A DNA stretch of 64,000 bases. Origin: Acidobacteriota bacterium (GTDB lineage Bacteria; Acidobacteriota; Polarisedimenticolia; J045). The stretch covers positions 1 to 64,000 of the forward strand of contig JAUZRX010000025.1 of assembly GCA_030949985.1 (NCBI GenBank), read 5' to 3'. Positions within the stretch are counted from its first letter, which is position 1. Each line of letters opens with the position of its first letter. The position numbers and the translations under genes were made by a program. This document shows positions 51,923 through 64,000 of this stretch, piece after piece. Under the pieces are notes generated by a model. The model saw nothing but the letters and a program-made list of their open reading frames with translations, was not told the DNA's origin and searched no databases.

Positions 51923-52903
51923 TTACGAGCCGTCGGCCGACGCGTCGCCGCGCCAGTCGGTGTGGGGTCGGCGGTTACGCACGAACCACTGCCACAAGAG
52001 CTGGCGATAGGTCACCGCCGGGTGGCCGATGTCTTCGTAGAAGGGCTCCAGCGCCACGTTCAGCCGCCGCAGGTTGTAGAAGGGGACACGGGGGAAGTAG
52101 TGGTGCTCGAGGTGGTAGCTCGACCAGAGAAAGGCGATGTCCCACAACCGCGATCGGGCCATGCGGGTACCCCACTTGGCGGGGTCCCGGGGGTCGATAT
52201 CGTAGTGCTGGCCCAGGCGATTGAGGGTGAAGGCCACGGGAAAGACCAGCAGGTAGGGAACCAGGTAGACCTTGAAGGCGATCCACGGCCCGGCGAACGC
52301 GAGGATCGCGCCGAGGATCGCGAGCTGGCCGACCACGGTGACCAGCCGCTCGAAAGCGATGCGACGGCGCAGATCCTCGGGATAGGTGGCCGCCTCCCGA
52401 GCCGCCGCGCGAAAGTAGATCGGGATCAGCGCCGGAGTCATGTAGAGCAACTTGAACCAGCGCGCGTTCCGCCGGGGCGAGAGATGGTGCCGCTTGGGGT
52501 CGGCCTCCACCGATCCCAGCCCGGCATGGTGATCGAGATGCCAGCGGGTGAACTGGCTGCGGGAGATCCCGCTGGGAAACGCGTAGAGCCAGCCCAGCAC
52601 GACCAGCCCCTTCGAGCGCCGACGACGGAAGACGGCATCGTGCACCACCTCGTGCAGCATCACCGTGAAGTTGAAGATCGTCCAGCCGATGACCACCGAA
52701 AAAGGCAGCCACGAGTACCAGCGGTCGAAGCTCAACGCGCCGGTCACACCCACCACCAGCAGCAGCACCTGCCAGGCGAGCACCAGGAAGTGCCGCCAGG
52801 GACGGGGCTCGTGCAAAGCGCGAAGCAGGTCCGTCGGCACCGCCCGGGACAGTCGGCGACGTAGCTCGACGGTGGACTCCGCCCAGTGGGATGAAGTGCT
52901 CAT
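51923..52903 (-). CDS. Membrane fatty acid desaturase-family protein
   Basis: The product is 326 residues. Three histidine boxes are present: HEVVHD, HLDHH and HLEHHYFP, which bind the di-iron site of membrane desaturases and hydroxylases. Four or more hydrophobic segments separate them. It probably inserts a double bond or hydroxyl into a lipid chain; carotenoid ketolase relatives share the pattern. ATG 52903 has GGGAGG rather far upstream (about 13 bases), so the start is not certain. It is divergent from the ZraS-like kinase. Confidence 0.85.
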   Translation of the reverse strand: MSTSSHWAESTVELRRRLSRAVPTDLLRALHEPRPWRHFLVLAWQVLLLVVGVTGALSFDRWYSWLPFSVVIGWTIFNFTVMLHEVVHDAVFRRRRSKGLVVLGWLYAFPSGISRSQFTRWHLDHHAGLGSVEADPKRHHLSPRRNARWFKLLYMTPALIPIYFRAAAREAATYPEDLRRRIAFERLVTVVGQLAILGAILAFAGPWIAFKVYLVPYLLVFPVAFTLNRLGQHYDIDPRDPAKWGTRMARSRLWDIAFLWSSYHLEHHYFPRVPFYNLRRLNVALEPFYEDIGHPAVTYRQLLWQWFVRNRRPHTDWRGDASADGS

Positions 52904-53022
52904 GGGAACAGCGTCGCCTCCCGCCGCTGACGAACATCGGCGTCCAGGTAAAGGTACCCGCGAGCGCTGTTGACGCCAACCCGGCCGTTTCGCCCCGCTC
53001 CGGGGGGCGCTATGGTGAGGCG

Positions 53023-54342
53023 ATGGAGACTCGACCTTCTCGAGCCGACGCCGCCACGACCTTCCGATCCTCCCCCTGGGCGCGGTGGGGCCTGCTGGTG
53101 GTGGCGCTGGCCATGGCAGCCGCCCTGGTGGCCTCCGCCGTCGCGGGCCACCGGGAAGCGGTGCGCTCGGCCCGAGAGCTTTCGGTGGTGTCCGGCATGT
53201 CCCTCGTGCGCAGCGTGATGCGGGACCTGACCCGGGCCGACGAGGACCCCGCCCAGGCCCTGGAGTGGATCGTCGAAAGCCTCCGGGACGAAGGCCTGCT
53301 CTACGCGGGTCTCTACGACGAAGACCAGCGGCCGGTCGCCGCGGCCGGCGAGCCGGCGGCGGATCCCGTCGCATTCCCCGCACCGCGGCGGATCCGGACC
53401 CCCGTCGCCGTGTCGGGCGGTCGCCTGCGCCTGGTCTCTCCCCCCTTGCCCTCCGGCCGGCGCCGACATCACCGCGGGCCGAGCCCTCGTTTTTCGGCCC
53501 CCGCCATGGCTCCCCCCTGGCACCATGCGTTTCTCGTGGTGGAGTACCTGCCCCTGCGCTCGATCGCCCTGCGCCGGCGGGCGGGACGCACCCTGGCCCT
53601 GAACCTGGCGGCGGCCCTGGTCCTGGCCGCCGCGGCGGCCTTCTTCTGGAGGCTCTCGAGGCTCGCAGACAGGGCCCGCGAGCAACTCGTTCGGGATCGG
53701 CGGCTGAAGGACCTGGGGCAGATGTCCGCGGTGCTCGGTCACGAGGTGCGCAACCCCCTGGCCTCGCTCAAGGGCAACGCTCAACTCCTGCTCGAAAAGA
53801 CGCCCCGGGACGACCCCTCGAGACCCCAGGTGGAGCGGATCGTCAGCGAGGCCCGGCGGCTCGAGACCCTCACCCGCCAGGTGCTCGACTTCGCCCGCAG
53901 CGGCCGGCTGGAGCGGGCCCCCGTCCCGGTGGCCCAGGTGGTGGAGAACGCCGTCCGCCGCTCCGCGGCCGATCCGGTCCAGGTCGACATCCCCGCGAAC
54001 CTGCCCACCTGGTACATGGACCGCGACCGCGTCGAACAGCTCCTCGAGAACCTGCTGACCAACGCCCGTGCCGCCTCCCCCCCGGGAGGCGTCGTGGAGG
54101 TCCACGTCCGGCTCGATCGGGGCGCGCTGTCGATCGAGGTCCGTGATCACGGACCGGGTATCGAGGACGGGGAAGTCGAACGCGTCTTCGAGCCCTTCTA
54201 TACCCGGCGCGTCCAGGGCACCGGCCTCGGACTGGCTCTCGCCCGCCGCATCGCCGAGGAGCACGGCGGCACCCTCACCGCGCGCAACCACCCGCGGGGA
54301 GGAGCGGTGCTGACCTTGCGCCTGCCACCGGGAGAAAGCTGA
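53023..54342 (+). CDS. Membrane sensor histidine kinase, ZraS/AtoS-like
   Basis: The product is 439 residues. TM1 is about 17-40 and TM2 about 195-212, enclosing a periplasmic sensor of ~150 residues. That sensor contains a His-rich patch (RRRHHRG, later PPWHH), which could bind metal. HisKA has [21 protein letters not shown]. HATPase_c has [23 protein letters not shown] and [18 protein letters not shown]. It should phosphorylate the sigma-54 regulator whose ATG follows its stop by one base. No TetR-type or other regulator lies between it and the divergent desaturase. Confidence 0.87.
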
Positions 54343-54343
54343 G

Positions 54344-55675
54344 ATGCCCGCGATCCTGGTGGTGGACGACGAGCCGGGCATCCGCGCCTTCCTCCGCGGC
54401 GCCCTCGAAAATTTCCGCGCCGGCTGGCAGGTCAGCGAGGCGTCCGACGGCGGCGAGGCCCTCGAACGACTCGAGCAGCAGGATTTCCACCTGATGATCA
54501 CCGACCTGAAGATGCCCGGGGTCGGCGGCATGGATGTGTTGACCTACGCCCGCCGGCAAATGCCCGAGATGGAGGTGATCGTTCTCACCGCCCACGGCAG
54601 CGTGGAATCCGCCGTGCAGGCGATGAAGCTCGGCGCCTTCGACTACCTGACCAAACCCCTCAGCGGACCCGAGGAACTGCGGCTTCTGGTCGGACGCGCC
54701 CTCGAGCGCCGGCGACTGCGCAGCCTGGCCCAGAGCGGCGCGGCGGTCCACGAGGCGACGTCGGCGATGATCGCCGTCGACCCCCGTTCCCGGAGCGTGA
54801 TGGAGCTGATCCGCAAGGTGGCCCCGGAGCCGACCACGGTGTTGCTGCTCGGCGAAAGCGGCACGGGCAAGGAAGTCGCCGCGCGGGAGATCCACCGTCT
54901 CAGCCCGCGCTCCGGCCATCCCTTCGTGGCGGTCAACTGCGCGGCGGTCTCCGCGGGTCTGGTGGAAAGCGAACTCTTCGGCCACGAAAAGGGCGCCTTC
55001 ACCGGGGCGGACCAGCGACGGCGCGGCCGCTTCGAGCTGGCCGACGGGGGCACCCTCTTCCTCGACGAGGTGGCCGAGATGCCCGTCGCCCTGCAGGCCA
55101 AGTTGCTGCGGGTGCTCGACGAACGGGTCTTCGAACGGGTGGGCGGCAACCGCCGCATCCAGGTGGACGTGCGGATTCTCGCCGCCACCAACCGAGACCT
55201 GGACGTCGAGCGGGCCGCGGGCCGGATGCGCGAGGACCTCTACCACCGCCTGGCGGCGTTTCCCATCACGCTGCCGCCCTTGCGGGAGCGGAGCGAAGAT
55301 CTAGAGCCCCTGGCCCGGCACCTGTTGGCCCGTCTTTCCCGCCAGCTCGGGCGGCCCCGGCTGAACCTGGGCCCGGGAGTGCTCGCGCGGCTGCGCGCGC
55401 ACGACTGGCCGGGTAACGTGCGGGAACTGGGCAACGTGCTCGAGCGAGCGGCGATCCTTGCGCCGGGAGACACGATCGAGGTCGGCCACCTGGCCCTGGA
55501 GCCGGCGGGAGGCGCCACCGCGCCGGCCCTGGAAGGCACCCTGCGCGACATCGAGAAGGAGGCGATTCGCCGGGCCCTGGCAGCCTGCCAGGGGCATCGC
55601 AGGAAGGCCGCCCAACGCCTGGGAATCGGCCTGCGCACCCTCTACGAAAAGATCAAGACCTACGGTCTGTCCTGA
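54344..55675 (+). CDS. Sigma-54-dependent response regulator, ZraR-like
   Basis: The product is 443 residues: receiver (about 1-120; [36 protein letters not shown]), AAA+ (about 140-375; [44 protein letters not shown]), and Fis-type HTH ([29 protein letters not shown]). It starts one base after the kinase stop, with GGGAGAAAGC as ribosome site. The likely target is the Spy/ZraP-like gene at 59214, which has a perfect sigma-54 promoter. Confidence 0.92.
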
Positions 55676-56100
55676 TCCCGCCCGACCCTGCCACCGGGGA
55701 GGATCCGGGAGAACAGGCGTCGAGACCAGGGACCGTGGCGGGCTTTCCATGCCTTTCGATCTTGCTCGACGGCGATTTTCCGCACCCGGCCGCCGCCCGC
55801 GCTCGCGTGGCGACCTCAGTATGTCCGGCCACCGCCGCGCGGGCCGGGGTCGTTGCGCCCGACCTTCGCCACATGCCGTTGAACCGGCTTGGGAGTAAAA
55901 CCCGGCCGGGCGACCCCGGGGCCCTTTCCCGCCTTTTCCTGCCCCGTCGGCGTTCTTCCGCAAGGGGCCGCCCATGCTTGCCGAACGCGGGAAGAAAGGG
56001 GCGGCGGCTTGACAGCCCCCCCGGCTTGACCGTACTTAGGGGGCGATTTCCCCCCAGCGCGGCGACCGACGCCCGGGTCGGGGGAAGCGGGGAGCGTGGG
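55676..56100. other. 425-bp gap between the response regulator and the aldolase gene
   Basis: An open frame runs through it, but its composition (Arg/Pro-rich, no ribosome site) does not look like protein. It ends with a good promoter (56009-56038). Nothing else was recognised. Confidence 0.5.
56009..56038 (+). promoter_or_regulatory. Sigma-70 promoter of the aldolase/FAAL operon
   Basis: TTGACA (56009-56014), 18-bp spacer, TACTTA (56033-56038). The -35 is perfect and the -10 keeps TA...TA. The first gene starts at 56101, giving a leader of about 55 bases. Confidence 0.6.
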
Positions 56101-57201
56101 ATGAAGGTCGCAGTACTGCGCGAAGAGGGCGCTTCCAACCTGGCGGCGCTGGGAGAGGAGGTCGCCGCCCTCCTGGCGCAACGCGGCCACGAGATCGTCC
56201 CCGAGCCTGTCGAGGACCTGCGGCTCGTCCTCAACCTGACTACCGTGGAGCAGGCCCGGGTGAACTACATCCGGCCCAATCCGTCGGTTTTCGTCGCCTC
56301 GCTGGTGCACTCCGAAAACGGCACGCGGTGGGAAAGCCTCGAGGCACTCAAGCGGGCCACCTACACGGCCCTGGTCAAGACCATGTCCAACGTGGTGGTC
56401 CACCGGGTCGAAAACGGCCCCCTGGGCGGGTCGGTGTACTTCATGACCCCCGAGTTGGGCTTCCGCCGCCGAGACGACGACGACGAGGTGGCCCGCTCCA
56501 TCGTCGACTACGTCACCCCGCTGTGCGAGGCGCGGGTGGTGGTCGACAACCGCCTGGACGAGGATCTGCCCGAAGAGCTCTGGGAAGGCGACGACAAGAC
56601 CGACGCCCTGCGCGCCTACGGGCGCACGATGGACGAGTTGAACCTGCTGCCGAGCCCCTTCGACATCAAGAGCCTGCTCTCCGAGCGCGATCTGCGCCTG
56701 GCGATGAAGCTCTTCGGCCTCAAGCAACTCTCCTACGGCAACCTTTCCGTGCGTCGCGACGCGCACAGCTTCTGGATGACGGGCCGCGGTGTGAACAAGG
56801 GCGCGCTCGAAAAAATCGGCCGCGACATCTTCCTGGTCAAGGGCTACGATCCGGCCAGCCAGGAGATCCTGCTTTCGGTGCCTCCGGGGACGGACCCCAC
56901 CTCTCGCGTCTCGGTGGATGCGATCGAGCACTTCAAGATCTACGACGCGCTGCCCCAGGTCGGCGCCATCGTGCACGTCCACGCGTGGATGGACGGAGTC
57001 GCCGCCACGCTGCAGAGCTGGCCCTGCGGCACCGAGCAACTGGCCGACGACGTGCTCGAACTGGTCCGCGCCGAAGCCGATCCGGGCCGTGCGGTGGTGG
57101 GCCTGAAAAACCACGGGCTGACCATCACGGGTCCCAGCCTGGAAGAGATCTTCTCTCGGGTCGAGGGTCGCCTGACCCAGGATATCCCCCCCCTGGAATA
57201 G
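56101..57201 (+). CDS. Class II aldolase/adducin-family protein with a novel N-terminal domain
   Basis: The product is 366 residues. The C-terminal ~190 residues are class II aldolase-like: YGNLSVRRDAHSFWMTGRG, GAIVHVHAW (metal His-x-His) and VVGLKNHGLTITG. The N-terminal ~170 residues (MKVAVLREEGASNLAALGEE..., then NPSVFVASLVHSENG) match no family I recognise. Known relatives cleave or epimerise phosphosugars with Zn. GGGAG lies six bases before ATG 56101. It is followed 36 bp later by the acyl-AMP ligase. Confidence 0.75.
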   Translation: MKVAVLREEGASNLAALGEEVAALLAQRGHEIVPEPVEDLRLVLNLTTVEQARVNYIRPNPSVFVASLVHSENGTRWESLEALKRATYTALVKTMSNVVVHRVENGPLGGSVYFMTPELGFRRRDDDDEVARSIVDYVTPLCEARVVVDNRLDEDLPEELWEGDDKTDALRAYGRTMDELNLLPSPFDIKSLLSERDLRLAMKLFGLKQLSYGNLSVRRDAHSFWMTGRGVNKGALEKIGRDIFLVKGYDPASQEILLSVPPGTDPTSRVSVDAIEHFKIYDALPQVGAIVHVHAWMDGVAATLQSWPCGTEQLADDVLELVRAEADPGRAVVGLKNHGLTITGPSLEEIFSRVEGRLTQDIPPLE

Positions 57202-57237
57202 GACCGGGGCCGGGAGCTTGACGGGAGGACAGGCCAC

Positions 57238-58968
57238 ATGCGTCGCACGATGGTCGACCTGGTCGACCGCATGCAGCTGGCGTCGCCGGAACACCGCCTG
57301 ACCCTGGTCGACGCGCGGGGCCGGTCGACGGTCTTCACCTGGCGGGATCTGCACCGCAAGATCCTGGCCCACGCCTCGTGGCTGGCGGCCGCCGGCATCC
57401 AGCGCGGCGACCGGGTGATCGTCTGCCCGACCAACGACCCCGACGTGCTCGCCAGCTTCCTGGCCCTGTTCTACCTCGGTGCGATTCCCTTCTGCGTCAG
57501 CGGAGCCCAGCTCGGCCAGTCCCCGGGCAGCCAGCTTCCCTTCGTCGCCTCGCTCGTCAACCACGCCGGGGCCCGGGCGATCTTCGCCCAGGCCGAGCTG
57601 GTGGCCCGCAACGACGAGGAGGGACTGATCGACCCGGAGTACATCATCGACCACGTCCCCTCGAGCCTGGACGCCGAATCCATCACTCCGCCGCCCCGGG
57701 CCCGGGTCACCGAGGACGAACTGGCCTTCGTGCAGTTTTCCTCGGGCAGCACCTCCCAACCCAAGGGCGTGCGCATCTCTCACCGCAACGTGATCGACAA
57801 CGTGCGGCTCCTGGTGGAAGTCGGTCGCCGCCACCCCGACGAGGCCGGCGTGGCCTGGCTCCCGCTCTACCACGACATGGGGCTGATCGCGACCCTCTTC
57901 GCCACCCTCTGGCACTATCCGCGGGATGCCACGCTGCTCAACCCGATTCGCTTCCTGCTGCGCCCGATCTCGTGGATCGAGGCGATCTCCCGCAGCCGGG
58001 CACGCGCGTCGATCTGTCCCAACTTCGCCCTCGATCTGTGCACCGACAGGATTCGACGCCAGCAACTGCGCGAGCTCGAGATCGACCTGTCCTGCCTCGA
58101 ATATCTCTACGTGGGTGCCGAGCCGGTGCGACCGTCCACCCTCCAGCGCTTCCGCGAAAAGTTCGAGGAGTTCGGCCTGGGCCCCCGCGTTCTACGCCCG
58201 GTCTACGGCCTGGCCGAAGCGACCCTCGTGGTCACCTGCCCCGACCTGGGGGAAGAGATCATCACCCGGACCATCGACGGCATCGAGGTCCCCTCGGTGG
58301 GCCGACCGCTGGGTGACTTCCGGCTCCGCATCGTCGACGAGTCCGGCGCGGACGTGCCGACGGGCGAGATCGGCGAAGTCTGGCTGAAGGGAACGTCCGT
58401 CACCGCCGGCTACCTCGACGAGAGCGCCAACAAGCGACTCTTCTCTGACGGCTGGCTGCGCACCGGCGACCTGGGCACCCTCGACGAGGCCGGCCGGCTC
58501 TACATCACAGGCCGCCTCAAGGACCTGATCATCATCAACGGGAAGAACTTCTACGCCCACGACATCGTCGCCGAACTCGAGCAGCTTCCCTTCTTCGAGC
58601 GCGGCAAGGTCCATGTCTTCTCCATCGTCTGCGACGACACGGAGCGGGTCGTGCTGCTGAGCGTTCCACTGGGCAAGATGACCCCCGCGGTCAAGGCCAA
58701 GATCAAGATCTTCCAGCACCTGGTCAAACGGGGCGGTCCCCACGGCTGGATCAAGAATATTCCCGAGCAGGAAGCCGCCGAATGGGTGGAAAAGCTGGTC
58801 TCTTCCGACGCCCGGGAGCTGATCAACGAGGTCAAGCGCTACGTGCTGGCCAAGTTCGGCGTTCCGCTGCACGACATCGTCTTCGTCAACAAGATTCCGC
58901 GCACCACCTCGGGCAAGGTGCGACGGGAAGATTGCGAGCGGCTCTACCTCGAACAGCGCCGTTCCTGA
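57238..58968 (+). CDS. Fatty acyl-AMP ligase (FAAL)-like enzyme
   Basis: The product is 576 residues. FSSGSTSQPKGVRISHRNV is the AMP loop. WLPLYHDMGLIATLFA, FLLRPISWIEAISRSRAR and ASICPNFALDLC are FAAL-typical, unlike acyl-CoA synthetases. The end reads NKIPRTTSGKVRREDC. FAALs load acyl-AMP onto carrier proteins of polyketide or lipid pathways, yet no carrier protein is next to it. GGGAGG lies nine bases before ATG 57238. It is probably co-transcribed with the aldolase gene. Confidence 0.85.
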   Translation: MRRTMVDLVDRMQLASPEHRLTLVDARGRSTVFTWRDLHRKILAHASWLAAAGIQRGDRVIVCPTNDPDVLASFLALFYLGAIPFCVSGAQLGQSPGSQLPFVASLVNHAGARAIFAQAELVARNDEEGLIDPEYIIDHVPSSLDAESITPPPRARVTEDELAFVQFSSGSTSQPKGVRISHRNVIDNVRLLVEVGRRHPDEAGVAWLPLYHDMGLIATLFATLWHYPRDATLLNPIRFLLRPISWIEAISRSRARASICPNFALDLCTDRIRRQQLRELEIDLSCLEYLYVGAEPVRPSTLQRFREKFEEFGLGPRVLRPVYGLAEATLVVTCPDLGEEIITRTIDGIEVPSVGRPLGDFRLRIVDESGADVPTGEIGEVWLKGTSVTAGYLDESANKRLFSDGWLRTGDLGTLDEAGRLYITGRLKDLIIINGKNFYAHDIVAELEQLPFFERGKVHVFSIVCDDTERVVLLSVPLGKMTPAVKAKIKIFQHLVKRGGPHGWIKNIPEQEAAEWVEKLVSSDARELINEVKRYVLAKFGVPLHDIVFVNKIPRTTSGKVRREDCERLYLEQRRS

Positions 58969-58987
58969 ACCGCCCCCCCCGGGCGCG

Positions 58988-59025
58988 GAATCCGCACTCC
59001 CCGCCATGCAGAATCCGCACTCCCC
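58988..59025 (+). promoter_or_regulatory. Two 15-bp direct repeats, candidate enhancer for the sigma-54 promoter
   Basis: GAATCCGCACTCCCC occurs at 58988-59002 and 59011-59025, 23 bp apart, about two helical turns. Each includes an inverted repeat of the form GGAAT-CCGC-ACTCC (perfect but for one base in copy 1). The pair lies about 118-155 bp upstream of the predicted start point. Confidence 0.6.
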
Positions 59026-59115
59026 GGCTCCCGCCGGCGCCGGGTGCGCCGGCGGCCTCGCCCCAACTCCCGGACAGGCCGCCGGATAGCCCCCGCACCA
59101 GCCTCCCGGCCCAGC

Positions 59116-59131
59116 TGGCACGTGACTTGCT
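59116..59131 (+). promoter_or_regulatory. Perfect sigma-54 promoter of the Spy/ZraP-like gene
   Basis: TGGCACG-TGAC-TTGCT matches the -24/-12 consensus at every conserved position, with GG (59117-59118) and GC (59129-59130) ten bases apart. Transcription should start near 59142, about 72 bases before the start codon. Confidence 0.85.
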
Positions 59132-59178
59132 TTACAGGCCCGTGGGACGACCCGCCCCCGGCCCGCAGGCCCAGCCGA

Positions 59179-59199
59179 GGCCCGCCGCGCCGGCGGGCC
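59179..59199 (+). promoter_or_regulatory. Leader hairpin next to the ribosome site
   Basis: GGCCCGCCG, loop CGC, CGGCGGGCC is a perfect 9-bp stem ending one base before AGGAG (59201). It lies in the predicted leader. It may stabilise the mRNA or limit ribosome access. Confidence 0.5.
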
Positions 59200-59213
59200 C
59201 AGGAGAAAGCGCT

Positions 59214-59807
59214 ATGAGATTCCCCCGCTACGTGTCACATGCCCCCCTGCTTCCCATTCTGGCGGCCCTGGCCGTCGCACTCCCTGCCGGCGCCGCTCCC
59301 GCCCCGGCCGGGGCGGGCGGCCCCCACGGCGGCCCGCCCCCGGCAGACTGCCCGCACGACCCGGGCACCCCGCCTTTCGGACCCGCGGCCCTGGGTTTCG
59401 GTCCCGGTCCCCTGGGCCCCGGGGTCTTCGCCCGCCTCGGCCTGAGCGCCGACCAGCGCGCCCGGATCCGGGCCGTGCGCCAGTCCCGGATCGCCGAAAA
59501 CGCCGACCTTCTCGAGCAGCTCACCGCCCACCGGCAGGCCATGCAAGAACTCTGGAAGGCGGAACGGCCGGACAAGGAAAAGATCCTGGCCCGCTGGAAG
59601 GAAGGCGCGCAGCTTCGGCGGCAGTGGTACGAGAAGATGGTGGACATGCGCCTGGCCGTGCTGGAAGTGCTCACCCCCGAACAGCGCGGGAAGCTGCGCG
59701 AACTGGCCGATACACCCCCGAACCGCCGCCACGGGCCGACACACGGGCACGGCCACCACGGCAAGCGCCGCGGACATCCCGGCTGCGGCGGCGGTCCCCC
59801 TGCCTGA
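59214..59807 (+). CDS. Spy/CpxP/ZraP-like periplasmic metal-binding protein
   Basis: The product is 197 residues with a signal peptide to about residue 28. A Gly/Pro-rich linker leads to a helical domain of the LTxxQ type (LGLSADQRARIRAVRQSR, then LEVLTPEQRGKLREL). The C-terminus is His-rich (HGPTHGHGHHGKRRGHPGC), as expected for zinc or copper binding. AGGAG lies eight bases before ATG 59214. A ZraP-like partner of the ZraSR-like pair is the natural reading: it may buffer metal, chaperone proteins, and damp signalling. Confidence 0.82.
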   Translation: MRFPRYVSHAPLLPILAALAVALPAGAAPAPAGAGGPHGGPPPADCPHDPGTPPFGPAALGFGPGPLGPGVFARLGLSADQRARIRAVRQSRIAENADLLEQLTAHRQAMQELWKAERPDKEKILARWKEGAQLRRQWYEKMVDMRLAVLEVLTPEQRGKLRELADTPPNRRHGPTHGHGHHGKRRGHPGCGGGPPA

Positions 59808-59992
59808 TGCATCCCGCGCAGGCCGACCCTCCCCCGGCGCCCCGCCCCCGCGGGGCGCCGATCTCTTCGGCCCGGACCGGCGTCCCCGCCGCCTCTTGAC
59901 CCCGACCTCCCCTTGGCAATACTTGAAAGTGTCCCCCGTCCCAGCATCGGGGACGGCAGCGCAGGTCTGCCCGCTCTCAGCCCGGAGGTCTC

Positions 59993-60952
59993 ATGATCCG
60001 CGAATCCCGTCTTGCCGCCCTCGCCGTGCCGGTCCTCGTTCTGGCCGCGGCGCTGTTCTCGTCCGTCTCGACCGCTGTGGCCAAGGACGATGCCCGCCTG
60101 CGCGTCGCCGTGATCGACTTCGACACCGAGGCGCTTCACGGAAGCTGGCGCTACTCCTGGCACTGGTCGAACCTGTCCAAGACCGCCGCGGCCAACCTGG
60201 CGGAGGAACTGTTCAAGACAGGCCGCTTCCGGGTCATCGAGCGCCAGCGGCTCGACGCCGTGCTGAGTGAGCAAAACCTGGGAGACAGCGGCCGGATCGA
60301 CGCCACCACGGCCGCCCGCATCGGCAAGATCCTCGGTGTGCAGCTCGTGGTGATCGGTTCCGTCACGGAATTCGGCATCAAGGAGCAGGGCGGCAGGCTG
60401 CCCCAGATCGGCAAGTGGAAATGGGGGCGCGGCCTCGGCGGCAAGCTGGTCACCAGCAGTTGCGCCCTGACGGCAAGACTGGTCGACACCACCACCGCCG
60501 AAATCCTGGCCGTCGGCGAGGCCGCGAGCACCCATAAATTCGCCAAGGGGGAGTTCGCCGGCGCCAACCTGGGCACCAACTGGGACAGCGGCATGGCTTC
60601 CAAGGTACTGGCCGAAGCCGTCGAGAAACTGGCCGCGGATATCGCCGCCGGCGCCGCCAACGTGGATCCCTCGACCCTGCGCGGCGGCCTGGTGGGCAAG
60701 ATCGCCAAGGTCGCGGGGGACAAGATCTACGTCAACCTGGGATCCGCCTCCGGCGTCAAGGCCGGGGACCGCTTCGCGGTAACCGCCCTGGGCGAAGCGA
60801 TCATCGATCCGGATACCGGCGAGAACCTGGGCGGTATCGAGAGTGAAATCGGCGAAATCGAGATCGTTCAGGTCGCCGGCGCCAAGCTCTCCGTGGCACG
60901 TCCGGTCTCCGGCTCGGGCTTTGCGGCCGGCAACAAGATCTCGATGAAGTGA
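59993..60952 (+). CDS. CsgG/HfaB-family secreted protein
   Basis: The product is 319 residues with a signal peptide cut near STAVAK. The CsgG core has RVAVIDFDTEALHGSWRY, LAEELFKTGRFRVIERQRLDAVLSEQNLG, ATTAARIGKILGVQLVVIGSVTEFG and CALTARLVDTTTAEILAVG. A C-terminal ~90 residues form a small beta domain (KIAKVAGDKIYVNLGSASGVKAGD) seen in FlgT-like and other CsgG relatives. No lipobox is visible, so it is probably soluble in the periplasm, not a curli pore. GGAGG precedes the ATG. Confidence 0.82.
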   Translation: MIRESRLAALAVPVLVLAAALFSSVSTAVAKDDARLRVAVIDFDTEALHGSWRYSWHWSNLSKTAAANLAEELFKTGRFRVIERQRLDAVLSEQNLGDSGRIDATTAARIGKILGVQLVVIGSVTEFGIKEQGGRLPQIGKWKWGRGLGGKLVTSSCALTARLVDTTTAEILAVGEAASTHKFAKGEFAGANLGTNWDSGMASKVLAEAVEKLAADIAAGAANVDPSTLRGGLVGKIAKVAGDKIYVNLGSASGVKAGDRFAVTALGEAIIDPDTGENLGGIESEIGEIEIVQVAGAKLSVARPVSGSGFAAGNKISMK

Positions 60953-61428
60953 TGGCAGACGCCCTCGCCGGCCGTTACGCGCGGATTCGCACGCAGCTCG
61001 CCGAACTCTTCGCCGGCTACGACCAGGGCCTCGACGCCACGGCGCGCATGGCCAGCATCGTGGCCCTGCTGCATCACAAGATGCCCCACTTCTCCTGGAC
61101 CGGGTTCTATCGCTGGACGGGAGCAGACCTGGTGGTCGGCCCCTATCAGGGTCCGCTGGCCTGCGCGGTGCTCAAGCGGGGCAGGGGCGTCTGCCTGCGC
61201 TGTGTCGAAACCGGCCAGGCTGTACGGGTCGACGACGTCCACGCCTTCGAGGGCCACATCGCCTGCGACTCCCGCTCCCGCAGCGAAGTCGTGGTGCCGG
61301 TGCGCCGCGATGACCGACTCGTCGCCGTCCTCGACGTGGATTCCGTGCGCCCCGCCGCCTTCACGTCCACCGACATCGCGGGGCTCGAAGCGATCACCGC
61401 GCTGGTCTATCCCGAACAGTCCGCCTAG
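60952..61428 (+). CDS. msrC: Free methionine-(R)-sulfoxide reductase (GAF, fRMsr)
   Basis: The product is 158 residues, a single GAF domain of the fRMsr type: SWTGFYRW, LVVGPYQGPLACAVLKRGRGVC and VHAFEGHIACDSRSRSEVVVPV. The three catalytic cysteines are present (about 72, 82 and 105 by rough count). It reduces free Met-R-sulfoxide. Its ATG shares a base with the CsgG-like stop (TGATG). Confidence 0.88.
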   Translation: MADALAGRYARIRTQLAELFAGYDQGLDATARMASIVALLHHKMPHFSWTGFYRWTGADLVVGPYQGPLACAVLKRGRGVCLRCVETGQAVRVDDVHAFEGHIACDSRSRSEVVVPVRRDDRLVAVLDVDSVRPAAFTSTDIAGLEAITALVYPEQSA

Positions 61429-61569
61429 CCATCCGGCGAGCGAGCCTCTTTCCCCACCGGACGCCTTTCCAACGAGCCGCGGAACGCGCCGGGTTCGGAC
61501 GACACGCCCGCGCGGGGCGCGGGAGCTGCTGTATATTCTGGTGGGCCCTGGTGACCCGAGGAGACACAG

Positions 61570-62388
61570 ATGCGCACCGGAATCATCGAACTTGAAGCGG
61601 ACCACCCCGGGTTCAACGATCCGGAGTACCGGCGGCGGCGGGACGAGATCGCCCGCCGGGCCCTCGAGCATCAACCCGGACAGGCGCCGCCGCATATCGA
61701 GTACACCGAATCCGAAAACCGCACCTGGAAGCAGGTCTACGAGGGGCTTACCAGATTGTATCCCACCCACGCCTGCCGGGAGTACAACGAGGCCTTCGGA
61801 GACATCGGCTTCTCTCCCGACCGCATTCCCCAGCTGGCCGAAATCGACGACTACCTGAAAAGTAAGACAGGCTTTCGGATCCAACCGGTGGCCGGACTGG
61901 TGGAGAGCCGCGATTTCCTCGCCTCCCTCGCCCAGCGCATCTTTCCCTCCACCGCCTACATCCGCCACCACAGCACGCCTCACTACACGCCCGAACCGGA
62001 TGTCTGTCACGAGTTGCTCGGTCATGTGCCGATGCTGGCGATCCCCGAATACGCCGACCTGATGCAGAAGATCGGCGAGGGCTCGGTGGGGGGCAGCGAC
62101 GAGCAGATCCTCCAGTTCGGCAGGCTCTACTGGTACACCATCGAGTTCGGCGTGGTCCGGCAAGCCGGTCAGCTGAAGGCCTACGGCGCGGGCCTGCTCT
62201 CGAGCCCCGGCGAGCTGGCCCACGCGGTGGAGGAAAAACCCGAGATTCGCCGCTTCGATCCGGACGAGGCGCGACAGATCGAGAACCCGATCACCACCTA
62301 CCAGCCGATCCTCTACGAGGTCTGCAGCATCCGCGAAGCTTTCTACCTGGTCGCCGCCTTCATCGAGCGCATCAAGCACGGCCTGTGA
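61570..62388 (+). CDS. phhA: Phenylalanine-4-hydroxylase
   Basis: The product is 272 residues, the monomeric bacterial size. DVCHELLGHVP (iron His pair) and YWYTIEFGVV (iron Glu) are intact, as is KAYGAGLLSSPGEL. It makes tyrosine from phenylalanine with a pterin cofactor. GAGGAG lies before the ATG; TATATT at 61532-61537 is a possible -10. It heads the phhA-hmgA-ligase run. Confidence 0.95.
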   Translation: MRTGIIELEADHPGFNDPEYRRRRDEIARRALEHQPGQAPPHIEYTESENRTWKQVYEGLTRLYPTHACREYNEAFGDIGFSPDRIPQLAEIDDYLKSKTGFRIQPVAGLVESRDFLASLAQRIFPSTAYIRHHSTPHYTPEPDVCHELLGHVPMLAIPEYADLMQKIGEGSVGGSDEQILQFGRLYWYTIEFGVVRQAGQLKAYGAGLLSSPGELAHAVEEKPEIRRFDPDEARQIENPITTYQPILYEVCSIREAFYLVAAFIERIKHGL

Positions 62389-62431
62389 AAGCGCCGCGGG
62401 CCTTCTCCAGCGACGCAAGGGAGAGGAGACG

Positions 62432-63592
62432 ATGATCCACCGACTCCAGCGGGGCACCGTTCCCCCCAAGCCCCACACCGTCTTCGAGGTCGATGGGGCC
62501 CTGACCTACGAACACTGCTTTACGCGCCAGGGCTTCGATGGCTCCTACTCGATCCTCTATCACCGGCGACCGCCCCATTGGGTCGCGGCCGCTGAAGACC
62601 TGGGCGAGCATCCCGGCGCCGGAGGCCCGGCCGCTCCGGGCAATCTCGAGCGGCGCCATTACCTCAGTGGCAAGATCCCCCGGGGCGGATCCCCTTTCCT
62701 CTGTCGCCGCCGTATTCTCGTCAACCCGGATATCGCGATCTGGATCGCCCACCCCGACCAGGACGACGAGACCCTGGTGGCCAACGGGGACGGCGATGAG
62801 CTGGTTTTCGTGCACCGCGGAAGCGGTCGACTCGACTCCCCATACGGTGAGCTGGCATTCGACGAGCAGGATTATGTCTACGTGCCCCGGGGTGTGCCCC
62901 ATCGCTGGCGCATCGATGGCCCCGCCGAGCTACTGATCATGGAAGGGCTGAGCTACATCGATCTGCCGGCCCAGTTCCGCAACGCCGCCGGTCAACTCAA
63001 GATGGACGCTCCCTATTCCCACCGGGACTTCCGGCCGCCGCGCTGGCCCGAGGGCGGTCCCACGACCCTGGCCCCGCCGCGGCGCCTGGTCACCAAACGC
63101 CGAGGCCGCCTGAGCGCCCTGGAAATGAGCCATGACCCCTTCGACGTGGTGGGCTGGGACGGCATGGTCTGGCCCTTCGCCTTCCCCATCCGCGCCTACC
63201 AGCCCCGTACGGGCCTGGTGCACCTGCCGCCGACGATTCACATCACCTTCGCCGGCGCAGGTTTCGTGATCTGCTCCTTCGTGCCGCGGGTGGTGGATTT
63301 CCACGAAAAGGCGATTCCCTGCCCCTACCCCCACTCGTCGGTGGACTGCGACGAGGTGCTGTTCTACGTGGAGGGCAACTTCACCTCGCGCAAGGGAATC
63401 GGGCCGGGCTCGATCTCCTATCACCCGATGGGCCTGCCTCACGGACCCCACCCGGGCACGTACGAAGCGTCCATCGGCACCCGCACCACCTCGGAGATGG
63501 CCGTGATGATCGACACCTTCAAGCCTCTCGATCCCACCTCCCACGCCCGGTCCATCGAGGACCCCGGCTACAACACGAGCTGGGTCCGCTGA
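62432..63592 (+). CDS. hmgA: Homogentisate 1,2-dioxygenase
   Basis: The product is 386 residues, the short bacterial form. RGVPHRWRIDGPAELLIMEGL, DVVGWDGMVWPFAFPI and CDEVLFYVEGNFTSRKGIGPGSISYHPMGLPHGPHPG hold the iron ligands. It opens homogentisate to maleylacetoacetate in tyrosine breakdown. The gap after phhA is 43 bp. 4-HPP dioxygenase and fumarylacetoacetase are not seen in the window. Confidence 0.93.
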   Translation: MIHRLQRGTVPPKPHTVFEVDGALTYEHCFTRQGFDGSYSILYHRRPPHWVAAAEDLGEHPGAGGPAAPGNLERRHYLSGKIPRGGSPFLCRRRILVNPDIAIWIAHPDQDDETLVANGDGDELVFVHRGSGRLDSPYGELAFDEQDYVYVPRGVPHRWRIDGPAELLIMEGLSYIDLPAQFRNAAGQLKMDAPYSHRDFRPPRWPEGGPTTLAPPRRLVTKRRGRLSALEMSHDPFDVVGWDGMVWPFAFPIRAYQPRTGLVHLPPTIHITFAGAGFVICSFVPRVVDFHEKAIPCPYPHSSVDCDEVLFYVEGNFTSRKGIGPGSISYHPMGLPHGPHPGTYEASIGTRTTSEMAVMIDTFKPLDPTSHARSIEDPGYNTSWVR

Positions 63593-64000
63593 TGGAGACC
63601 GGTCCGATCATCTGGCGTCCCCGGGAAGACGACCTCGAAAACTCCAACGTGGCCCGCCTGATGCGGCGTCACGGCATCGCCGACACCGCGGAGTTGCGGC
63701 GCCGGGCGGCCCGGGATCCGGGCTGGTTCTATCCGGCGATCATCGAAGACCTGGGCATCGAGTGGCTCGAACCCTACGAGTCGCTGCTCGACGACAGCCG
63801 GGGCCTGCCCTGGACCCGCTGGTTTCTCGGCGGCAAGCTGAACCTGGTCCACAACGTCCTCGACCGGCACCTCGCGCGCCACGCCGAGCGCACGGCGGTG
63901 ATCGCCGAAGACGACGACGGCGCGGTGACCCGGCTGAGCTACGGCCGGCTCGCCGAACGAGTCTGCCGCCTGGCCGCGGCCCTTTCAGGCAAGGGCGTGG
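63592..64000 (+). CDS. Acetoacetyl-CoA synthetase-like AMP-binding enzyme, N-terminal part (cut by window end)
   Basis: The first 136 residues are visible. The ACAS_N-type start (PIIWRPREDDLENSNVARLMRR, then PWTRWFLGGKLNLVHNVLDRH) matches acetoacetyl-CoA/acetyl-CoA synthetases. Acetoacetate is an end product of homogentisate breakdown, so an acetoacetyl-CoA synthetase would fit. It starts in a TGATG overlap with hmgA. Confidence 0.8.
   Translation, partial: METGPIIWRPREDDLENSNVARLMRRHGIADTAELRRRAARDPGWFYPAIIEDLGIEWLEPYESLLDDSRGLPWTRWFLGGKLNLVHNVLDRHLARHAERTAVIAEDDDGAVTRLSYGRLAERVCRLAAALSGKGV

Follow-up and report, generated by a model that had tools for sequence, protein, structure and literature searches.

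The window analysed here is the whole stretch of 64,000 nucleotides (nt) at positions 1 to 64,000 of contig JAUZRX010000025.1 from an Acidobacteriota bacterium, and the feature under study is a pair of genes encoding a class II aldolase (ALD) and an acyl-activating enzyme related to fatty acyl-AMP ligases (FAALs). The two genes lie on the same strand with a spacing of 36 nt, and the genome holds one copy of ALD. We regard it as an evenly balanced proposition that they form half of a four-gene lipid module, the other half being a YegS/DAGK-type lipid kinase and an acyl carrier protein (ACP). The pair is made up as follows.

56101–57201, plus strand: ALD, class II aldolase, 366 amino acids (aa), PF00596
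56101–56574, plus strand: N-terminal α/β domain of ALD, residues 1–158, supported by alignment and fold
56575–57201, plus strand: class II (zinc) aldolase domain of ALD, residues 159–366 and the stop codon, supported by PF00596, fold and conserved residues
57238–58968, plus strand: FAAL-like acyl-activating enzyme (AMP-binding), 576 aa, PF00501
58276–58281, plus strand: ligase codons 347 and 348, the place of 18 absent residues of the FAAL insertion

The first-pass annotation, made from the sequence alone, had described an aldolase with an unrecognized N-terminus of about 170 residues, paired with a FAAL-type ligase. The domain searches agree with it on each of these points. PF00596 matches residues 201–296 of ALD with 61.8 bits against a cut-off of 22.2 (E 1e-16), PF00501 matches the ligase with 197.7 bits (E 3.4e-58), and residues 1–158 of ALD belong to no Pfam family. 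That annotation also held that the aldolase was the only partner of the ligase, which is not the case at the level of the pathway, since the set also includes an ACP and a lipid kinase. We located the partner genes by a codon-usage gene call and by tblastn with the partner proteins. In the genomes G002, G003, G004, G005 and G008 and at locus L006, a small gene lies directly 5′ of ALD and is preceded by a lipid kinase gene. The small gene encodes an ACP, since in the two copies scanned PF00550 reaches 26.0 bits (window's genome) and 22.7 bits (G004) against a cut-off of 20.8; four copies scanned with the NCBIfam ACP models remain below their cut-offs. The phosphopantetheine serine stands in a DSH, DSA or DSQ motif in the window's family and L006, and in TSV or ASV in two copies from a second Acidobacteriota family. 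In all six loci with the ACP beside ALD, the stop codon of the ACP gene and the start codon of ALD share a 4-nt overlap (ATGA or GTGA), taking for G008 an ALD start upstream of the later one chosen by the gene caller.

The kinase and ACP genes of the window's genome are neighbours on another contig, C119 (locus L088), away from the ALD–FAAL pair.

C119, 3000–5348: transketolase-like gene (TK)
C119, 5370–6572: aminotransferase gene (AT)
C119, 6575–7537: lipid kinase gene
C119, 7576–7788: ACP gene
C119, after the ACP, opposite strand: LGT

This ACP, one of six PF00550 places in the genome, is the free-standing carrier protein that the first-pass annotation had suggested looking for. The C119 kinase matches PF00781 (71.1 bits) and PF19279 (72.0 bits), both above cut-off, and shares these two domains with the YegS/Rv2252/BmrU lipid kinases; its TIGR00147 score of 104 bits is under the cut-off of 118.65. 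In the sister species G001 the same block lies on contig C658, and ALD–FAAL lies separately on C374. The four-gene set is split in the window's genus.

To describe the neighbourhoods, we refer to the window's family as f1 (12 genomes, its own included) and to the second Acidobacteriota family as f38. ALD occurs in 9 of 100 genomes searched, the window's own included, and in 14 of 396 Acidobacteriota genomes on the same count, with seven in f1, four in f38 and three in other families. Among 294 Planctomycetota genomes there are two, L006 with an ALD–FAAL pair and L116 with a DUF3419 context. Within f1 a close FAAL (at least 59% identity) is present in exactly the seven genomes that have ALD, directly 3′ of it in each, and the two genes are also adjacent in all four ALD-bearing f38 genomes and in L006, a Planctomycetota metagenome-assembled genome. 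The order kinase–ACP–ALD–FAAL is found in G003, G005, G008 and L006; it recurs in G002, where the kinase is cut by the contig end, and in G004, where a transporter stands between kinase and ACP. The order is kinase–ALD–FAAL–ACP in all four ALD-bearing f38 genomes (G081, G093, G114 and G123), and at the f38 locus L109 a CDP-alcohol phosphatidyltransferase gene (PF01066) lies divergently upstream, with a look-alike gene in L110. Kinase matches of at least 50 bits occur in all seven ALD-bearing f1 genomes, although in G002 that match comes from an additional copy, and the module kinase is present as two 32-bit pieces at the contig end. The two ALD-lacking f1 genomes in the kinase search gave 24 bits (G006) and nothing (G007). 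The survey places the pair within a kinase, ACP, ALD and FAAL set. The first-pass annotation had staked its proposal on conservation of the pair, and this stands for f1, f38 and L006. ALD homologues in other phyla lack the FAAL, so that conservation extends over the lineage of the pair and not over the aldolase family as a whole.

Both the window's genome and G001 have TK and AT directly before kinase and ACP, and at L004 (G005) six genes stand in a row, TK–AT–kinase–ACP–ALD–FAAL. This arrangement could mean that all six form a single pathway to an amino-polyol (sphingoid-like) lipid, which we consider very unlikely from the distribution of the two genes. G008 has ALD but no TK orthologue (at least 62%), and G004 has ALD but no AT orthologue (at least 66%). 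Conversely, TK occurs in G006 and G010 and AT in G006 and G009, none of which has ALD, and neither gene was found at the f38 and L006 loci. In G006, moreover, TK–AT is followed by TauE-like and response-regulator-like genes (assigned by eye), as on C119, without the four genes between. We therefore excluded TK and AT from the core; they look like resident neighbours, and their distribution together with the G006 locus indicates that kinase, ACP, ALD and FAAL behave as a unit. The transketolase-like protein of L088 is itself divergent: its 783 aa give a best NCBIfam transketolase score of 101.6 against a cut-off of 488, it has GEG where transketolases typically have GDG, and a close copy is present in 8 of the 12 f1 genomes.

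The ligase is closest in sequence to the FAALs (7r7f, E 8.4e-67), and its best NCBIfam match is the fatty acyl-AMP ligase family NF006624, with 311 bits under a cut-off of 600. The picture of a textbook FAAL drawn in the first-pass annotation has to be modified. The FAAL-specific insertion is incomplete: about 18 residues are absent compared with 7r7f, 3kxw and 3pbk and with two f38 FAALs. All seven f1 and L006 sequences that cover the site show the shortening, and the two aligned f38 proteins keep the insertion. In this comparison three proteins (G002, G005 and G008) are fragments cut off at contig ends, that of G002 short of the insertion site. In the FAAL tree, for which the G003 protein was trimmed ahead of a stretch of unknown residues, the f1 and L006 ligases form one clade and the f38 ligases another (both 100/100); the tree is compatible with independent recruitment of the f38 FAAL or its opposite (approximately unbiased test, p 0.489). 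The shortened insertion, seen throughout these relatives and against the solved FAALs, raises the alternative that the ligase is an acyl-CoA ligase and that the ACP serves another step. We think this unlikely, given the overall similarity to FAALs in both searches and the dedicated syntenic ACP; in addition, PMC8460268 reports that FAALs with the insertion deleted use CoA only weakly and that other elements matter more, and it describes an alternative pantetheine pocket and a blocked CoA pocket as features of FAALs. The ligase shares with known FAALs (3kxw, 3pbk and 7r7f; FadD32/FadD28) the AMP-binding type, the best sequence matches and a partner ACP, and differs from them in the 18 missing residues, in the lack of polyketide synthase or nonribosomal peptide synthetase genes in the conserved set, and in its tie to an aldolase and a lipid kinase.

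We compared ALD with characterized class II aldolases. The AlphaFold model is confident (pLDDT 90.7, pTM 0.88), and in it the predicted aldolase half superposes on DrdA with Z 17.6 and a root-mean-square deviation (rmsd) of 2.3 for 155 residues, and on FucA with Z 17.1. In an alignment of 33 sequences, the window's own included, N214, S271, D273, H292 and H294 are present in every sequence and H338 in 32, the remaining row ending before this position; the fragment L018 and the duplicate loci L031 and L033–L035 were left out, and the L030 row was trimmed at its tblastn match. By comparison with FucA and AraD, we take these residues to be the putative zinc ligands (the three histidines), phosphate pocket and acid/base; D273 is an Asp at an AraD-like position. 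DrdA (6btd/6btg), FucA and AraD are like ALD in the fold of this half and in the conserved H292, H294, H338, N214 and S271, whereas ALD has an extra conserved N-terminal domain, a length of 366 aa and a lipid-gene neighbourhood. Similarity to PDB chains by sequence is marginal (best profile E 1.2e-4), and all 12 NCBIfam families listed fall under their cut-offs, so that the FucA/AraD/MtnB equivalog level is not reached (MtnB, 34 bits against 137). Because the nearest PDB folds and NCBIfam matches are small-sugar enzymes, ALD might act on small molecules, in sugar-phosphate salvage like 5-deoxyribulose-1-phosphate aldolase or the methylthioribulose-1-phosphate enzymes, and share a lipid operon by convenience. 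This is quite improbable given the 4-nt overlap with the ACP gene in every locus where the two are neighbours, and a lipid kinase near ALD across three gene contexts in several phyla.

The N-terminal half of ALD carries its own invariant residues, since R58, Y88, N97, T116, E118, G120 and N150 are present in all 33 aligned sequences. As judged from this alignment, the domain is shared by the whole ALD family and conserved in it, and is not a private fusion of the window's genome. Structure prediction of this part by itself gave a confident α/β domain (pLDDT 89.1) whose predicted fold may be CoaB-like. It aligns with CoaB 5int over 130 residues (Z 11.7, rmsd 2.6), and the 13 top-ranked VIA matches all fall to CoaB or Cab2 (Z 9.6–11.7), with other folds such as flavodoxins and receivers at 9.1 or below. 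In Foldseek, CoaB (2gk4) comes sixth (E 2e-3, TM 0.58), and the single match below E 0.001 is PolG2. Homology to CoaB and its DFP family was rejected, since hhalign gives a probability of 0.3% against 19 CoaB proteins of relatives, and a relationship drawn from the shared fold by itself was judged weak; the CoaB proteins of relatives start GPTxExxDxVRxxxNxSSG, to which ALD has no counterpart by eye. Any resemblance to the phosphopantothenoylcysteine synthetase CoaB would thus be one of fold only. Two further candidates were judged to be chance matches, the PolG2 accessory subunit (E 7e-4, TM 0.30) and VasX_N, which Pfam found in 3 of the 33 alignment members (best E 1.2e-4) and not in the window's own domain. 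A viral structure library gave no match below E 0.001, and a defence-system library none at E 1e-5.

Outside this lineage ALD is found in other gene contexts. Across several phyla a lipid kinase is present in 22 of 29 ALD loci, and in 18 of the 24 outside f1 and L006. Among the seven loci without a kinase, four (L002, L008, L017 and L026) sit on contigs of 4.2 to 8.7 kb. A kinase would fall in a 13-kb locus by chance about 1 time in 100, as estimated from two kinase genes in the window's 3.7-Mb genome, with many of the loci related to each other. Seven loci in Caldifarciminota, Nitrospirota, Acidobacteriota, Gemmatimonadota and Bacteroidota combine ALD with DUF3419 carrying a methyltransferase part, a GNAT protein and a lysA-like decarboxylase; six of them have the kinase, and six an FtsX-type permease with an ABC ATPase. 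DUF3419 is of betaine-lipid type. These loci share the lipid kinase and head-group enzymes with the betaine-lipid (BtaA, DUF3419) pathway, unlike the f1, L006 and f38 loci, where DUF3419 gave no match. In the 17 remaining loci (Bacillota, Thermomicrobiota and Chloroflexota), a zinc dehydrogenase is present in 14, counting L010 (in two pieces) and L018 (29% alike), and PlsC in four; L008, L012 and L022, which have none of the searched partners, belong to this group. The single dehydrogenase scanned, from L007, is nearest to the threonine-3-, galactitol-1-phosphate-5- and inosose dehydrogenases, under their cut-offs. In the ALD tree two groups come out as clades, the DUF3419 loci with support of 100/99 and the rest group with 99/99; f38 lies on a very long branch, and a single clade of f1 and L006 is neither supported nor rejected.

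As an observation in its own right, L009 (618–8903) holds a cluster of lipid kinase, methyltransferase with DUF3419, GNAT, lysA-like decarboxylase, aldolase, FtsX-type permease and ABC ATPase genes, and similar clusters, some without one end, are present at L017, L019, L020, L021, L027, L030, L111, L113 and L116. It perhaps serves a lipid of betaine-like type whose head is decarboxylated; the open-access literature gave no paper in which DUF3419 and the aldolase occur together.

The four-gene module probably handles a bacterial lipid without earlier description. The FAAL would adenylate a free fatty acid and load the acyl group onto the module ACP. The zinc aldolase would make or break a C—C bond beside the carbonyl of a phosphorylated ketose or a unit of the dihydroxyacetone phosphate (DHAP) type, which may be part of the lipid head or backbone, and the kinase would phosphorylate a hydroxyl of the lipid. 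The net result may be assembly of a phosphorylated polyhydroxy acyl-lipid, which seems slightly likelier than breakdown because of the coupling to an ACP. We counted as support the polyol- or lipid-like contexts of ALD (DUF3419, PlsC, CDP-alcohol phosphatidyltransferase and polyol-type dehydrogenase). The first-pass annotation had imagined a lipid-sugar or acyl-sugar product; its acyl part gains from the existence of the ACP, and the sugar part is compatible with the evidence.

Several points weigh against the proposed module. ALD occurs without FAAL and ACP in other phyla, so acyl loading is dispensable for its chemistry, and the ligase could use CoA because the FAAL insertion is absent. General lipid turnover could be the shared setting of kinase and ALD, with each acting at a separate step. 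In Bacilli the kinase is often on the opposite strand; L012, L022 and L008, the last on a 4.2-kb contig, stand without any searched partner; and the window genome's own kinase and ACP lie away from the pair. Neither an acyltransferase nor an acyl-ACP reductase was seen in the conserved core; the reductase would be required for a fatty aldehyde to serve as acceptor. The absence of an aldehyde-forming step is the main gap in models where the aldolase joins the acyl chain. One such model has the zinc class II aldolase make or cut a lipid backbone: an ACP-derived fatty aldehyde and a DHAP-type unit would give a long-chain 3,4-dihydroxy-2-keto-1-phosphate and then, by reduction or amination, a phytosphingosine-like phosphate without serine palmitoyltransferase, with the same step and other finishing enzymes in Bacilli, Thermomicrobiota and other phyla. 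We hold this model to be highly improbable.

The identical gene set would also fit breakdown or recycling. Here a long-chain lipid of polyol or ketose type would first be phosphorylated by the kinase and then cleaved by ALD into DHAP and a fatty aldehyde; after oxidation to the fatty acid, FAAL would re-activate the chain onto the ACP. By analogy, this would parallel the eukaryotic series of sphingosine kinase, sphingosine-1-phosphate lyase and acyl-CoA synthetase; sphingolipid turnover shares the logic of kinase, lyase and acyl activation, although ALD is not dependent on pyridoxal phosphate. DrdA and FucA, the nearest class II aldolases in fold, are catabolic, and in Bacilli and Thermomicrobiota the ketone for cleavage could come from the polyol-type dehydrogenase encoded near ALD. 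However, the core showed no aldehyde dehydrogenase, and tight coupling to an ACP is commoner in synthesis. We treat breakdown as possible but doubtful.

If the four-gene module is real, two seemingly orphan genes become part of a defined lipid system. The whole aldolase family, with the same N-terminal domain in several phyla, stands mostly beside lipid kinases. Were ALD to act on lipids, sugar-aldolase chemistry would be put to an unusual use in the metabolism of membrane lipids. The ligase, which lacks the FAAL insertion yet has an ACP, offers a natural test of what stops FAALs from using CoA. The enzyme families are known ones, in a combination for which no description was found among open-access papers.

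Upstream of ALD, the first-pass annotation had placed a clear sigma-70 promoter, which the promoter scan does not bear out. Over 55000–62000 it returned a single site, at 59896, and none before ALD. One element was noted in this DNA.

56007–56042, plus strand: upstream element of 36 nt, with TTGACA at 56009–56014, identical in the sister species G001

This element is the longest identical stretch shared with G001 within the 250 nt compared, and its TTGACA has a weak −10 box or none. Directly before the ALD gene lies a pair of genes for a sensor kinase and a sigma-54-type response regulator (52891–55675), and the window also holds a fatty acid desaturase gene (PF00487; 51923–53011, minus strand). 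Beyond the ligase, 59215–59807 encodes a small proline-/histidine-rich protein that is probably secreted and is Spy/CpxP-like by eye. Lastly, 61570–63999 holds genes for a phenylalanine-hydroxylase-like protein (PF00351) and a homogentisate-dioxygenase-like cupin (PF20510, PF04209), together with the first part of an AMP-ligase-like gene (by eye); they are perhaps a cluster for the breakdown of aromatic amino acids.

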